Assembly: GCA_004297545.1 (NCBI GenBank)
Contig: SCTB01000085.1
Span: 1-64,000 of the forward strand
Direction: 5' to 3'
DNA: 64,000 nt
From: Alphaproteobacteria bacterium
GTDB lineage: Bacteria; Pseudomonadota; Alphaproteobacteria; Micavibrionales; UBA2020
Within the stretch, counting starts at the first letter, position 1. Each line of letters begins with the position of its first letter. Shown piece by piece: positions 39,248 through 43,611 of this stretch. The notes beneath the pieces are model-generated. The model had not been told where the DNA came from and did not search any database. It saw only the letters and a program-made list of their open reading frames with translations. A program made the position numbers and the translations under genes.

Positions 39248-39499
39248 CTAATTCTCCGTCACTTAAATATTTTTGAACACTGGAGCACCATAACAGGAAT
39301 TTTTGAAAAGTAAATCTGGAAAACGAGAAATAAAGTTTCTTTTTTCTGCGATATCAACAGAATAGACATAACTCTTAAAGTTTCCATAAATAACAAATTT
39401 TAACAGAGCCGCAGCGAACAAATCAGCCGAATCGCGCGCAAAGATTTACGGTTCGTAAAAATAATCCGCGTTATACTGACGCAAGGGTTTAAACGGGGG

Positions 39500-40084
39500 A
39501 TGCTTTCCATGCTGCAAAAAACAAAAGCGATCATCATTTCCATCGGCATTTTCTGTCTGGCGCTGCCGGTCCTGCCGGGCTGTTCGAGCCGGCCGGAGAA
39601 CGTGGGCACATCCGCCCAGGAAGTCGATCCGGAAGACTGGAAGGCCGAAAACAAGAAAGCGGAGAAGAGAATTGTTCTGGCCCGCGAAGCGTTCCATGAC
39701 GGCAAGATTGTGAACCGCCCGCCCGACCCGCCGCTGGGCATGCGCCCGGGTGCATATTCGCGGTCCTTCGAGAGCGGCATGCACTGGGAAGTGCCGCAGA
39801 AATTCAACTGCATATATTGCGGCAACGGGTCGCTGGCCGCCTATGAGAACATGCACCACAACAACCGGGATATTTACCGCCCGATGGGCTGGTTCCACGA
39901 TTACAAGGCCACGGCGGACATCTATTACGGCGACGGTTACCTGCCGGCCGGAAGCTGGACGGGACGACCGCTGGAGCCGGCGAAAACGCGCGAGCTGAGC
40001 TGGAAACAGGACGCGCAGGGGAGAGTCCGCTCTGACGAAGTCTCCGGCGCGCCCCTGAAAATCACACCCGCGCCGAACCGCTAG
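39500..40084 (+). CDS. Putative lipoprotein, cassette gene 1
   Basis: IIISIGIFCLALPVLPGCSS lipobox; followed 2 bp later by the beta-propeller gene. Confidence 0.7.
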   Translation: MLSMLQKTKAIIISIGIFCLALPVLPGCSSRPENVGTSAQEVDPEDWKAENKKAEKRIVLAREAFHDGKIVNRPPDPPLGMRPGAYSRSFESGMHWEVPQKFNCIYCGNGSLAAYENMHHNNRDIYRPMGWFHDYKATADIYYGDGYLPAGSWTGRPLEPAKTRELSWKQDAQGRVRSDEVSGAPLKITPAPNR

Positions 40085-40086
40085 GC

Positions 40087-41157
40087 ATGCTGCGCCTGAT
40101 TGTTTTCGCGGCCGTATTCTTCGCCGGCATCGCGGCAGCCTTCGCAGGAACTTCAAATAATAATATCGACGTCCTGATTTCCGGCCACGGCGGGCGCGTG
40201 GACTGGGGGGGCAATAGCCTGATTGCCTATGACCAGCAGGACAAAGACGGCTGGTTCCAGGTCTGGACGATGAAACCGGACGGCACGGGCAGGCATTGCA
40301 TCACTTGCGGCGACGGATTCCCGAAGCGGCACAACGGCAACCCGGCCTGGCATCCGTCGGGGAAATATATCGTCTTCCAGTCGCTGGATGAGAACATCAA
40401 GATGCCCTGGCTGTGGGGCAAGCTTTACCGCATCTATACCAACCCCGGCGCCGGCGTGAACAATAATATATGGATTGCATCCTCCAACGGGAAACGCGCC
40501 TGGCAGATGACCGTGCTCGGCAAAGGCAAGGGTGTGCTGCACCCGCATTTTTCGCATGACGGAAAGACGCTGATATGGGCGGAGATGACCAGCACCAAGC
40601 CCGGCCCCTTCGGCAGCTGGGTGATCCGCAAGGCGGCTTTCATCGAGCGCGGCGGCGGCCCGGCAGTGACGGATGTCGAGACGCTGGCGCCCGGCGACCT
40701 GCAGTTCTATGAAACGCACAGTTTCACGCCGGATGACAAATCCATCGTTTTTACCGGTAAGGCGCTCGATTCGAAAAGCCACGCGCTCGACATATACAGA
40801 TACGACTTCGACAGCAAAAAGCTGACGGTGCTCACCGACCCGGAACTGGACGAATGGGATGAGCACGCGCAGGTATCGCCCGACGGCGCGAAAATACTGT
40901 GGATGTCGAGCGCGGACATCAAGCCAAATACCAGGGGCCCCTTCGTCAAGACCGACTACTGGATGATGAATATCGACGGGTCGGACAAGCAACGCATCAC
41001 CCGCTTCAATGACAAGGGAGCGCCGGAATATCTGCCGGGCAAGGTCGTCTGCGCCGATTCGTCCTGGAGCCCTGACGGCAAAAAATTCATCGCCTATGTC
41101 GAACATAATTCGACGGCGACGAAAGCGGGGGATATTGTGGTGGTGGGGGTGAAATAG
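40087..41157 (+). CDS. Secreted TolB/PD40-like beta-propeller protein, cassette gene 2
   Basis: Signal peptide LRLIVFAAVFFAGIAAAFA; repeated PD40-type motifs (NPAWHPSGKYIVFQS, HPHFSHDGKTLIWAEM, HAQVSPDGAKILWMS, DSSWSPDGKKFIAYV). Confidence 0.85.
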   Translation: MLRLIVFAAVFFAGIAAAFAGTSNNNIDVLISGHGGRVDWGGNSLIAYDQQDKDGWFQVWTMKPDGTGRHCITCGDGFPKRHNGNPAWHPSGKYIVFQSLDENIKMPWLWGKLYRIYTNPGAGVNNNIWIASSNGKRAWQMTVLGKGKGVLHPHFSHDGKTLIWAEMTSTKPGPFGSWVIRKAAFIERGGGPAVTDVETLAPGDLQFYETHSFTPDDKSIVFTGKALDSKSHALDIYRYDFDSKKLTVLTDPELDEWDEHAQVSPDGAKILWMSSADIKPNTRGPFVKTDYWMMNIDGSDKQRITRFNDKGAPEYLPGKVVCADSSWSPDGKKFIAYVEHNSTATKAGDIVVVGVK

Positions 41158-41161
41158 CAAA

Positions 41162-42235
41162 ATGCTCGTCAAATCCCGCCACCGCGGCTTTTCCCTGATC
41201 GAGCTCGCCGTCGTGCTGACGATAGTGGGCCTGCTGCTGACGGCTTTCTTAAGGTTCTATGCCATCATGGACGAAAAGCAACGCATCGAAACGACGAGGA
41301 CGCGCTTGGCTGAAATCCGTACGTCGATGATTTACTACGTGCTGACGCATAACCGCCTGCCCTGTCCCGCAAGTCCCCTGAACCCCCGGACGGCCGACCA
41401 GGAGAAAGACCCCTGCGGCCCGGATGCCAGCGACCCGCCTGACGGCGTGGATACGCATACGGTTATGCTGGAGGGCCGTATCCAGACGGATGAATCGCTC
41501 GATATCTGGACGGGCGTGGTGCCGGTGCGCGACATGCAGCTGGACCCGCAGCTGGCCGTGGACGGCTGGGGCAACCGTTTCAGCTATGCCGTGAGCCGCA
41601 ACCTGACGCTCCCCTTCGGCATGCGCGGCAATCCCGTCCCAAAGGGGCATATTTCGGTCGTCGACGAGAACGGCGCGAACATTCTGGCGGTGCCGGACAC
41701 GGGGCGCTATGTCGTCATCTCGCACGGGCCGTCGGGAGGAGGGGCCTGGACGCGCGACGGCAAGCGGCGCCCCTGCCAGCCCGGCACGCTGGCCTCGAAA
41801 AACTGCGAGAACAGCGGCGCCTTTGTCATCGCGCCGTTCTCTTCCGCGCCGGGCGAGCGCTTTTTCGACAATATCGTCGTCAATGACGACGTCAACGCCG
41901 GCGGGACGCTTCTGGATCATATCGCCATCTGTACGCGCAAGCTGATGTTCTTCGAGCCGGGCGAACCGACCGCCGACAAGGAGGGCTGTGTCCACGCGGA
42001 GGAGGACAACGGCGCCTGGCACGGCATCTGCGTGAAAACGGGCGACCCCAATGCGGAAGAATCCGTCAAGGCGCTGTTAAGGCCGGCTATCGTCGAGGGC
42101 AAGACCTGCGGCTGTCTCCAGGGGTTGGGGTTGGCGCCGATACTGGCGGGCACCTGGCTGCAGGCGCCCGAGATAGCAAGCCACCCGCCCGTCAACGCGA
42201 TGATGAGCCTTTACACATGCGTACGCCAGAAATGA
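41162..42235 (+). CDS. Pseudopilin-like protein with long C-terminal domain, cassette gene 3
   Basis: Type IV N-methylation motif RGFSLIELAVVLTIVGLLLTAFLRFYA; LPCPASPL; AVDGWGNRFSYAVS. Confidence 0.87.
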   Translation: MLVKSRHRGFSLIELAVVLTIVGLLLTAFLRFYAIMDEKQRIETTRTRLAEIRTSMIYYVLTHNRLPCPASPLNPRTADQEKDPCGPDASDPPDGVDTHTVMLEGRIQTDESLDIWTGVVPVRDMQLDPQLAVDGWGNRFSYAVSRNLTLPFGMRGNPVPKGHISVVDENGANILAVPDTGRYVVISHGPSGGGAWTRDGKRRPCQPGTLASKNCENSGAFVIAPFSSAPGERFFDNIVVNDDVNAGGTLLDHIAICTRKLMFFEPGEPTADKEGCVHAEEDNGAWHGICVKTGDPNAEESVKALLRPAIVEGKTCGCLQGLGLAPILAGTWLQAPEIASHPPVNAMMSLYTCVRQK

Positions 42236-43611
42236 CACGACAGGACGCATCGCGCGGCGTAAGCCTGTTCGAGCTGGCCATCGTCATGCTGATTTCAGGC
42301 CTTATGCTGGTCGGTATCATGCGCCTGTTCCAGACGCTGCGGCTCGAGCAAGAGCTGAAAGTGACGCGTACGCGCATCGACAAAATCCAGCAGCAGCTCG
42401 ACGCCTTCGCGGACAGGAACGAGCGCTTCCCCTGCCCCCTGGTGCCCGCAGACGGGCCGATGGCAGGCGAGCCCGCCGGCTGCATCAATCCTGACCTGAA
42501 GCCCGGCGAGCGCGATGTCGCGGCGGGAATCCTGCCCGTCGCGGCGCTGGGACTCACGCCCGACGAGGCGCAGGACGGATGGGGCAACATGTTTACCTAT
42601 GCCGTGAGCGCGATGCTGACGAAAGAGAACGGCATGCGCGGCGTCACGCCGCCTGCGGGCGTCATCGGCCTTGTGAACGGTTATGGCGACAACGTGCTCG
42701 ACAAGCCGGACAGCGGCAGATATGTGATTATCTCTCACGGGCCAGACGGCAGGGGTGGCTTCACACCGGGGGGCCGCGCGATTCCCTGCCGCGAGGGGAC
42801 GCTCTCTGCGCGAAACTGCCATGCGCCGGTTGATTTCGTGGCGGCGTCCTGGAGTATGGCGCCCGGGCCCTATTTCTTCGACAATATCGTCATCGGCGAC
42901 GGGTCGCGGCGTCAGGCGCGGCTCCTTGACCATCTCGATTTCTGCGGGCGGGGCGGCAAATACTATGCGCCGGAGCGCTTTTACGCCGACAAAAACGGCT
43001 GCGTCGCCGACGACAAGGTCTACGGCGCCTGCAGCATCGAGTCCTCGTATATGGATCACGGCTACGGCGACCCCTTCACCGGCGACTGGAACGAAATTCC
43101 GAAGCAGGCGGTGTGGCCCGCCAGACTGGACCTGTACCCGAAAGAAAAGCCGATACTGGGGGCCTGCACCTGCGAGAGAAGCTTTGAGCTCATGAAAATC
43201 GGCGCCGGGGAATTGCCGCTCGATCACCCGGACCCTCCTTATACCCCAAGGCAGGACTGCCAGCGCGCCTACGCCCATTGGCAGCCGGCTATCCTGAAGG
43301 AACATTGCAGCGAGGAGCCGCCCGTGCTGGTGACGCGCGAGATCGAGTGGAAATACGAATACATCTCGACCATGAAAGGAGAGGTCTGGAAGCAGACCGG
43401 CTCGGAATGGAAGCTGGCCACCGGGCAGGGCTGGTCAATATTGCCGCTGATGGCGCTTCATCCCGACACCGGCAAGCTTGTCCACGCCAAGGCGGCAGCG
43501 CACCATGACCCGAACGACCCGGCGCAAACCAGAATTCGTGAGGTTGTCTGGGCGAAGCCGCTGGTGCAGAGGAACCACAAGCGCGCGCTTTACGCCTGTA
43601 TCAGGAAGTGA
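42217..43611 (+). CDS. Pseudopilin-like protein with long C-terminal domain, cassette gene 4
   Basis: RGVSLFELAIVMLISGLMLVGIMRLF; RFPCPLVPADG; AQDGWGNMFTYAVS; overlaps preceding gene by about 19 bp. Confidence 0.87.
   Translation: MRTPEMTRQDASRGVSLFELAIVMLISGLMLVGIMRLFQTLRLEQELKVTRTRIDKIQQQLDAFADRNERFPCPLVPADGPMAGEPAGCINPDLKPGERDVAAGILPVAALGLTPDEAQDGWGNMFTYAVSAMLTKENGMRGVTPPAGVIGLVNGYGDNVLDKPDSGRYVIISHGPDGRGGFTPGGRAIPCREGTLSARNCHAPVDFVAASWSMAPGPYFFDNIVIGDGSRRQARLLDHLDFCGRGGKYYAPERFYADKNGCVADDKVYGACSIESSYMDHGYGDPFTGDWNEIPKQAVWPARLDLYPKEKPILGACTCERSFELMKIGAGELPLDHPDPPYTPRQDCQRAYAHWQPAILKEHCSEEPPVLVTREIEWKYEYISTMKGEVWKQTGSEWKLATGQGWSILPLMALHPDTGKLVHAKAAAHHDPNDPAQTRIREVVWAKPLVQRNHKRALYACIRK

Follow-up and report, generated by a model that had tools for sequence, protein, structure and literature searches.

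Large modular minor pilins are a known kind of protein. In PilB of Streptococcus sanguinis, a pilin part is joined to a large C-terminal part that has been argued to be exposed at the tip (PMC8179133). Prepilin-type operons have already been reported in the epibiotic predator Micavibrio as well: Micavibrio aeruginosavorus ARL-13 has three operons and eight prepilin-type proteins, and its type IV pili were tied to prey adhesion on transcript evidence (PMC3189940). In another predator, Myxococcus, the Tips of the Kil/Tad pilus form interchangeable sets (PMC12075869). Here we describe two long prepilins, which we call pilin A and pilin B, encoded by the last two genes of a four-gene cassette at positions 39,500 to 43,611 of a 64,000-nucleotide stretch (the window) from an alphaproteobacterium of the order Micavibrionales (genome G000, a 3.86-Mb assembly of 197 contigs in which the window is C164). 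We consider it likely, with a probability of roughly 0.75, that they are minor pilins of the single mannose-sensitive hemagglutinin (MSHA)/type IVa (T4a) pilus of this bacterium, matured and assembled by a machine encoded on another contig, C153, with their heads probably at the pilus tip.

Two paralogous long pilins

Pilin A, of 357 amino acids (aa), is encoded at 41162..42235 and pilin B, of 459 aa, at 42232..43611, both on the + strand; the start of the latter overlaps the stop of the former (ATGA), and an alternative ATG at 42217 would extend pilin B to 464 aa. Both carry a class III prepilin signal, i.e., a short leader (MLVKSRHRG in pilin A, MTRQDASRG in pilin B), Gly at -1, Glu at +5, and a hydrophobic helix. 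Pilin A matched the Pfam model N_methyl above the cut-off (PF07963, E = 7.8e-7), whereas pilin B scored below it (E = 0.024) despite its visible Gly(-1), Glu(+5), and 9-residue leader. The prepilin N-termini read in both proteins by a preliminary description of this DNA, made from the letters alone, are thus borne out for pilin A by the model and for pilin B by an intact motif; the sizes given there, approximately 330 to 430 aa, were slightly too small.

The two proteins are true paralogs (43% identity over ~260 aa, E = 1e-54), and the motif sharing that had been noticed reflects real paralogy rather than chance. Their common core signatures, all on the + strand, are RLPCP (41354..41368) in pilin A and RFPCP (42424-42438) in pilin B, DGWGNRFSYAV (41561..41593) and DGWGNMFTYAV (42574-42606), and YVVISHGP (41708..41731) and YVIISHGP (42721-42744), respectively. 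The pilin-like core of pilin A runs to approximately residue 248 and is followed by a Cys-rich C-terminal head; the Cys-rich head of pilin B comprises 230 aa, and the proteins contain 10 (pilin A) and 12 (pilin B) Cys residues.

AlphaFold modeled pilin A with a long helix at residues 12-63 (block predicted local distance difference test [pLDDT] values of 87-97), and its core, residues 35-248, with a pLDDT of 86 and a predicted template modeling score (pTM) of 0.86. The C-terminal heads were modeled poorly, and the C-terminal half is variable among family members. A PDB sequence search with the pilins matched essentially only pilin N-termini, and a fold search with the full-length model against the PDB and viral libraries returned nothing. 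Alignment to GspG by hhalign gave 98.5% over the N-terminal 70 columns, and the order of motifs appeared similar by eye (YP, D.WG..Y.Y, S.G.DG..GG, DI). However, we do not claim a GspG-like core, because the alignment covers only the N-terminal helix and the next YP/PCP motif and because the Foldseek matches, given below, were not significant. The core is best called a diverged pilin, judged by sequence, helix, and context and not by a fold match.

A single pilus machine on contig C153

Scans of the bacterium's own genome, run by family or by protein, found one MSHA/T4a-type pilus locus, located on C153. It encodes, in this order, a PilB-type ATPase, PilC/GspF, PilM-, PilN-, and PilP-like proteins, an ABC ATPase, a TPR protein, a prepilin peptidase, PilT, PilU, an MshL-type secretin, an ABC permease-like protein, a small protein, an AraC-type regulator, and finally a pilin interrupted by the contig end. 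The ATPase (C153:38647-40563) is of the PilB/MshE type and has an MshE-type cyclic di-GMP motif, the peptidase is supported by Peptidase_A24, and the secretin matched the MshL model with E = 3e-60, scoring 204 bits vs 97 bits for GspD. The names PilM, PilN, and PilP rest on position and between-genome comparison, with no NCBIfam match at 1e-5.

A genome-wide T2SSE search found only one assembly ATPase of the PilB/MshE kind. The other matches, whose types were assigned provisionally by reading, were PilT, PilU, three weaker ones (putatively Tad-type), a DotB-like protein on C129, and one far below the cut-off. There was only one other A24 peptidase match, a 113-aa frame on C151 whose length would suit a Tad peptidase. 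The DotB-like ATPase (L028:1-2598, G000:C129) has neighbors that read as Dot/Icm-like; a published study describes type IV secretion systems in Micavibrionales that are related to Dot/Icm-bearing lineages (PMC9418006).

The preliminary description was right in seeing no ATPase, no platform protein, no peptidase, and no secretin among the four genes, but the same genome encodes all of these parts elsewhere. The genome search for pilus machinery that it had proposed found the ATPase, PilC, the peptidase, and the secretin on C153, and its view of a cassette without a secretion system and of an undescribed appendage does not hold: what the window lacks is encoded on another contig.

The pilin family accompanies the machine

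In the sister genome G006, three long pilins and PilA directly adjoin the whole machine, and G001 has the same arrangement with two PilA copies. In the bacterium itself, three family members form a cluster on contig C47 that flanks dapD/dapE-like genes, as in G001, and C47 and C153 are therefore probably neighbors across an assembly gap. Farther away, a more distant alphaproteobacterial contig (L069) has three members between the secretin and PilB of a PilB-PilC-secretin locus, and members on betaproteobacterial contigs lie inside MSHA-like operons (such operons are found in L071, L073, and L074). The contig L074 is titled as a Klebsiella pneumoniae metagenome-assembled genome and carries a PilB-PilC-type pilus operon with a family member; its label or binning looks doubtful, and the same may apply to L064 (Spartobacteria).

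Across 94 Micavibrionales genomes, the family (E <= 1e-6) was found in all 82 with the ATPase and in 1 of the 12 without it (Fisher p = 1.7e-13, a figure that ignores shared ancestry). Among the latter, 11 had no match or a marginal one (E >= 1e-5), the exception being G087. Family and ATPase are missing together in no fewer than four separate places (f2, f6, most of f7, and G066, a member of f3), and incomplete assemblies could explain some of the absences.

These results argue for a role of pilins A and B as minor pilins of the C153 pilus, which could work as follows. The C153 prepilin peptidase would remove the 9-residue leaders, the N-terminal helices would enter a filament built by the PilB/MshE-type ATPase, PilC, and the MshL-type secretin, and PilT/PilU would retract it. 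The large Cys-rich heads would be exposed, most likely at the pilus tip, where they fit best by their size and by analogy with modular pilins (PMC8179133), and they may bind surfaces or other cells, possibly prey. The window pilins would then be related to the long pilins that lie next to the pilus locus and be specific to their own lineage.

Several points weigh against this. The window pilin locus is unlinked to the machine, and its membership follows from family and not from an operon. The heads had no match in Pfam, NCBIfam, or PHROGs. Foldseek found no significant match of the core in the PDB, with CofA (first), GspG, EpsG, and PilA1 appearing only at E >= 0.57. Finally, assembly into the C153 pilus, the tip position, the binding role, and any role of the two other cassette genes are inferred. 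For the two prepilins, the minor-pilin tip or adhesin suggested beforehand is nevertheless a good fit; the undescribed envelope appendage proposed along with it is not.

Scattered relatives and a possible set of swappable tips

Besides the three members on C47, the genome has a tandem pair on C160 and single members on C27 and C111. An alignment of 22 members, all of which (22/22) match N_methyl, keeps this motif, R.PCP, D.WGN.F.YAV, SHG..G.GAY, and then DD or DN; beyond the N-methylation motif, the family is covered by no model in Pfam or NCBIfam. In the pilin-core tree, one subclade (support 0.999), separate from the machine-linked long pilins, unites both window pilins with their orthologs in G005, with the paralogs on C160, C27, and C111, and with single members of G002, G004, G005, and G008. 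Judged from these sequences, this subclade is a lineage-specific expansion.

Some members deviate from the window pair. The C160 tandem paralogs (L022:7652-8827 and L022:8842-10002) have Ala or Thr in place of Glu+5, and members without Glu+5 also occur in L064, L066, and L134; GspK-type tip pseudopilins likewise lack Glu+5. The C27 paralog (L023:8256-10672) sits behind an OmpR-type regulator, its start overlapping with the end of a gene for a histidine kinase, and is possibly a sensor-controlled pilin. One of the C47 pilins (L025:5898-9089) has 1063 aa with Cys-rich C-terminal repeats, and it groups with the 500-1040-aa pilins that adjoin the pilus locus in other genera. The C-terminal part of a family pilin of Micavibrio ARL-13 (L134:4000-5046, - strand; G056:C1) resembles phage tail-fiber profiles (phrog_8469, E = 7e-6, residues 312-348; phrog_1800, tail collar fiber, E = 0.001), and members in L063, L064, and L067 have similar PPY.AL.YC-like C-terminal motifs. 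Such profile matches suggest a phage-like receptor-binding head on some pilins of the family.

By analogy with the Kil Tips, a broader reading can be tentatively considered, although we regard it as rather improbable: in Micavibrionales, one type IV pilus machine may serve a large, swappable, lineage-specific repertoire of minor pilins with big heads, whose genes are dispersed and which recognize different prey or surfaces, with the window pair as one tip set and the propeller protein encoded upstream of it as a dedicated chaperone or binding partner.

An unlikely alternative: pseudopilins of a type II secretion system

Pilins A and B would instead be pseudopilins if they built a short periplasmic pseudopilus that pushes exoproteins out by type II secretion. 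Their N-termini do score with GspH and GspG models, and it has been argued for ARL-13 that pilus proteins may be borrowed by a type II system in which GspC, G, H, and K are missing (PMC3189940). On the other hand, a search with PF08334 found no GspG-type protein in the genome, the secretin is of the MshL type rather than GspD, and the same locus encodes the retraction ATPases PilT and PilU. With no GspG and an MshL-type secretin, we rejected this reading as unlikely.

The four genes are not a conserved unit

The four open reading frames are real and all on the + strand; the first three are spaced by 2 bp and 4 bp, and the last two overlap by 4 bp (ATGA). The tight co-directional spacing noted beforehand was confirmed, as were the motifs that the two long prepilins share. 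Upstream lies an AT-rich intergenic region (39248..39499, + strand; 36% GC vs 62% in the cassette), presumably the promoter region of the cassette, in which a consensus promoter scan of 39248-39499 found no sigma-70-like site.

Gene 1 (39500..40084, + strand) encodes a small exported protein of 194 aa, a possible lipoprotein with the lipobox LPGC and Cys28, and with Cys104/Cys107 within a CIYC motif; no Pfam or NCBIfam family was matched. The outer-membrane-type lipoprotein of the preliminary description rests on an atypical lipobox (LPGC|S), and the only relative among 93 other members of the order (G005, 40%) is without the lipid-accepting Cys. Gene 2 (40087..41157, + strand) encodes a secreted PD40/TolB-like beta-propeller protein of 356 aa, as had been read (PF07676, E = 2e-12), but not TolB, as it scored 49 bits against a cut-off of 343 in the TolB equivalog model. 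Its clear relatives are limited to G003 (59%, same site), G001 (35%, another site), and G065 (32%); another 141 genomes of the class yielded none at E <= 1e-15, and a PDB sequence search gave nothing.

Read as a stand-alone envelope appendage or adhesin complex, the view of the preliminary description, the four genes would have the propeller and the lipoprotein as obligate pilin partners, in keeping with the tight spacing and with the exported or membrane-anchored look of all four proteins. The same site in sister species speaks against it. G001, G002, G004, G005, G006, G008, and G009 all retain the flanks, with a 502-aa gene on one side and lipB, a 174-aa gene, and the malic enzyme gene on the other. 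Only G005 has pilins at the site, orthologs of both pilin A (63% identity) and pilin B, together with a lipoprotein-like gene but without the propeller. In G003, the propeller gene and lipB are direct neighbors and pilins are absent between them, on a contig that begins inside the propeller gene, and none of the four genes is at the site in G001, G002, G004, G006, G008, and G009. Moreover, no pilins adjoin the relatives of the propeller found in G001 and G065, and the C160, C27, and C111 paralogs are without lipoprotein or propeller partners. A phosphoglycerate-mutase-like gene stands between the pilins and lipB in G005 (L061:11007-11839), so the site carries different genes in different species.

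At this one site, sister species therefore have the propeller and the pilins apart from each other. The outcome that the preliminary description had itself named as refuting, a lack of co-conservation, thus applies to the four-gene cassette, and the claim of a new four-gene appendage should be dropped. Given also the single C153 machine, the linkage in sister genera, and a family presence that tracks the ATPase, an undescribed appendage is largely refuted and very unlikely. The propeller and lipoprotein-like genes are loosely attached, optional accessories, whose products may help fold or anchor the pilin heads or act in something unrelated. Least likely of all is that the pilin genes are decaying or unassembled duplicates of little function, as their dispersed, lineage-specific, and variable presence and the sub-cut-off signal of pilin B might suggest, since both frames are intact and orthologous in G005 and keep the core motifs, Glu+5, and the Cys pattern.

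Comparison with known systems

Almost all Micavibrionales, the order to which the epibiotic predator Micavibrio belongs, have the family. It is most variable in the exposed C-terminal part and is lost together with the pilus ATPase; it thereby offers a candidate list for prey recognition by these predators. As no curated model reaches beyond the N-terminal motif, naming the broader family would improve annotation. We found no description of this specific pilin family, its order-wide expansion, or its link to an MSHA-type machine in the open-licence literature.

The machine resembles the MSHA-type pilus (MshE, MshG, MshL) in its secretin, its ATPase, the family neighborhood in L069, L071, and L074, and its N_methyl prepilins. 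It differs in that PilT and PilU are part of the locus and in that the window pilins are much larger, are encoded away from the machine, and did not match an Msh minor-pilin model. Like PilB of S. sanguinis, the window pilins combine an N-terminal pilin part with a large C-terminal part, putatively as two modules, but here the extra part is an unrecognized Cys-rich region with no known binding domain. The Kil Tips, with which the window pilins may be compared, are minor pilins of a predator that can be exchanged for one another and differ in their exposed domains; however, Kil is a Tad (Flp) system, whereas our family carries N_methyl-type and not Flp/Tad-type signals, and a Kil/Tad Tip identity was rejected. 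The genome of ARL-13 (G056) has eight long members of the same family in three loci, presumably the eight prepilin-type proteins reported there, although the window pilins fall in a distinct subclade and come from a different family of Micavibrionales. Taken against these systems, the set consists of uncharted pilus parts and is not a new surface machine.

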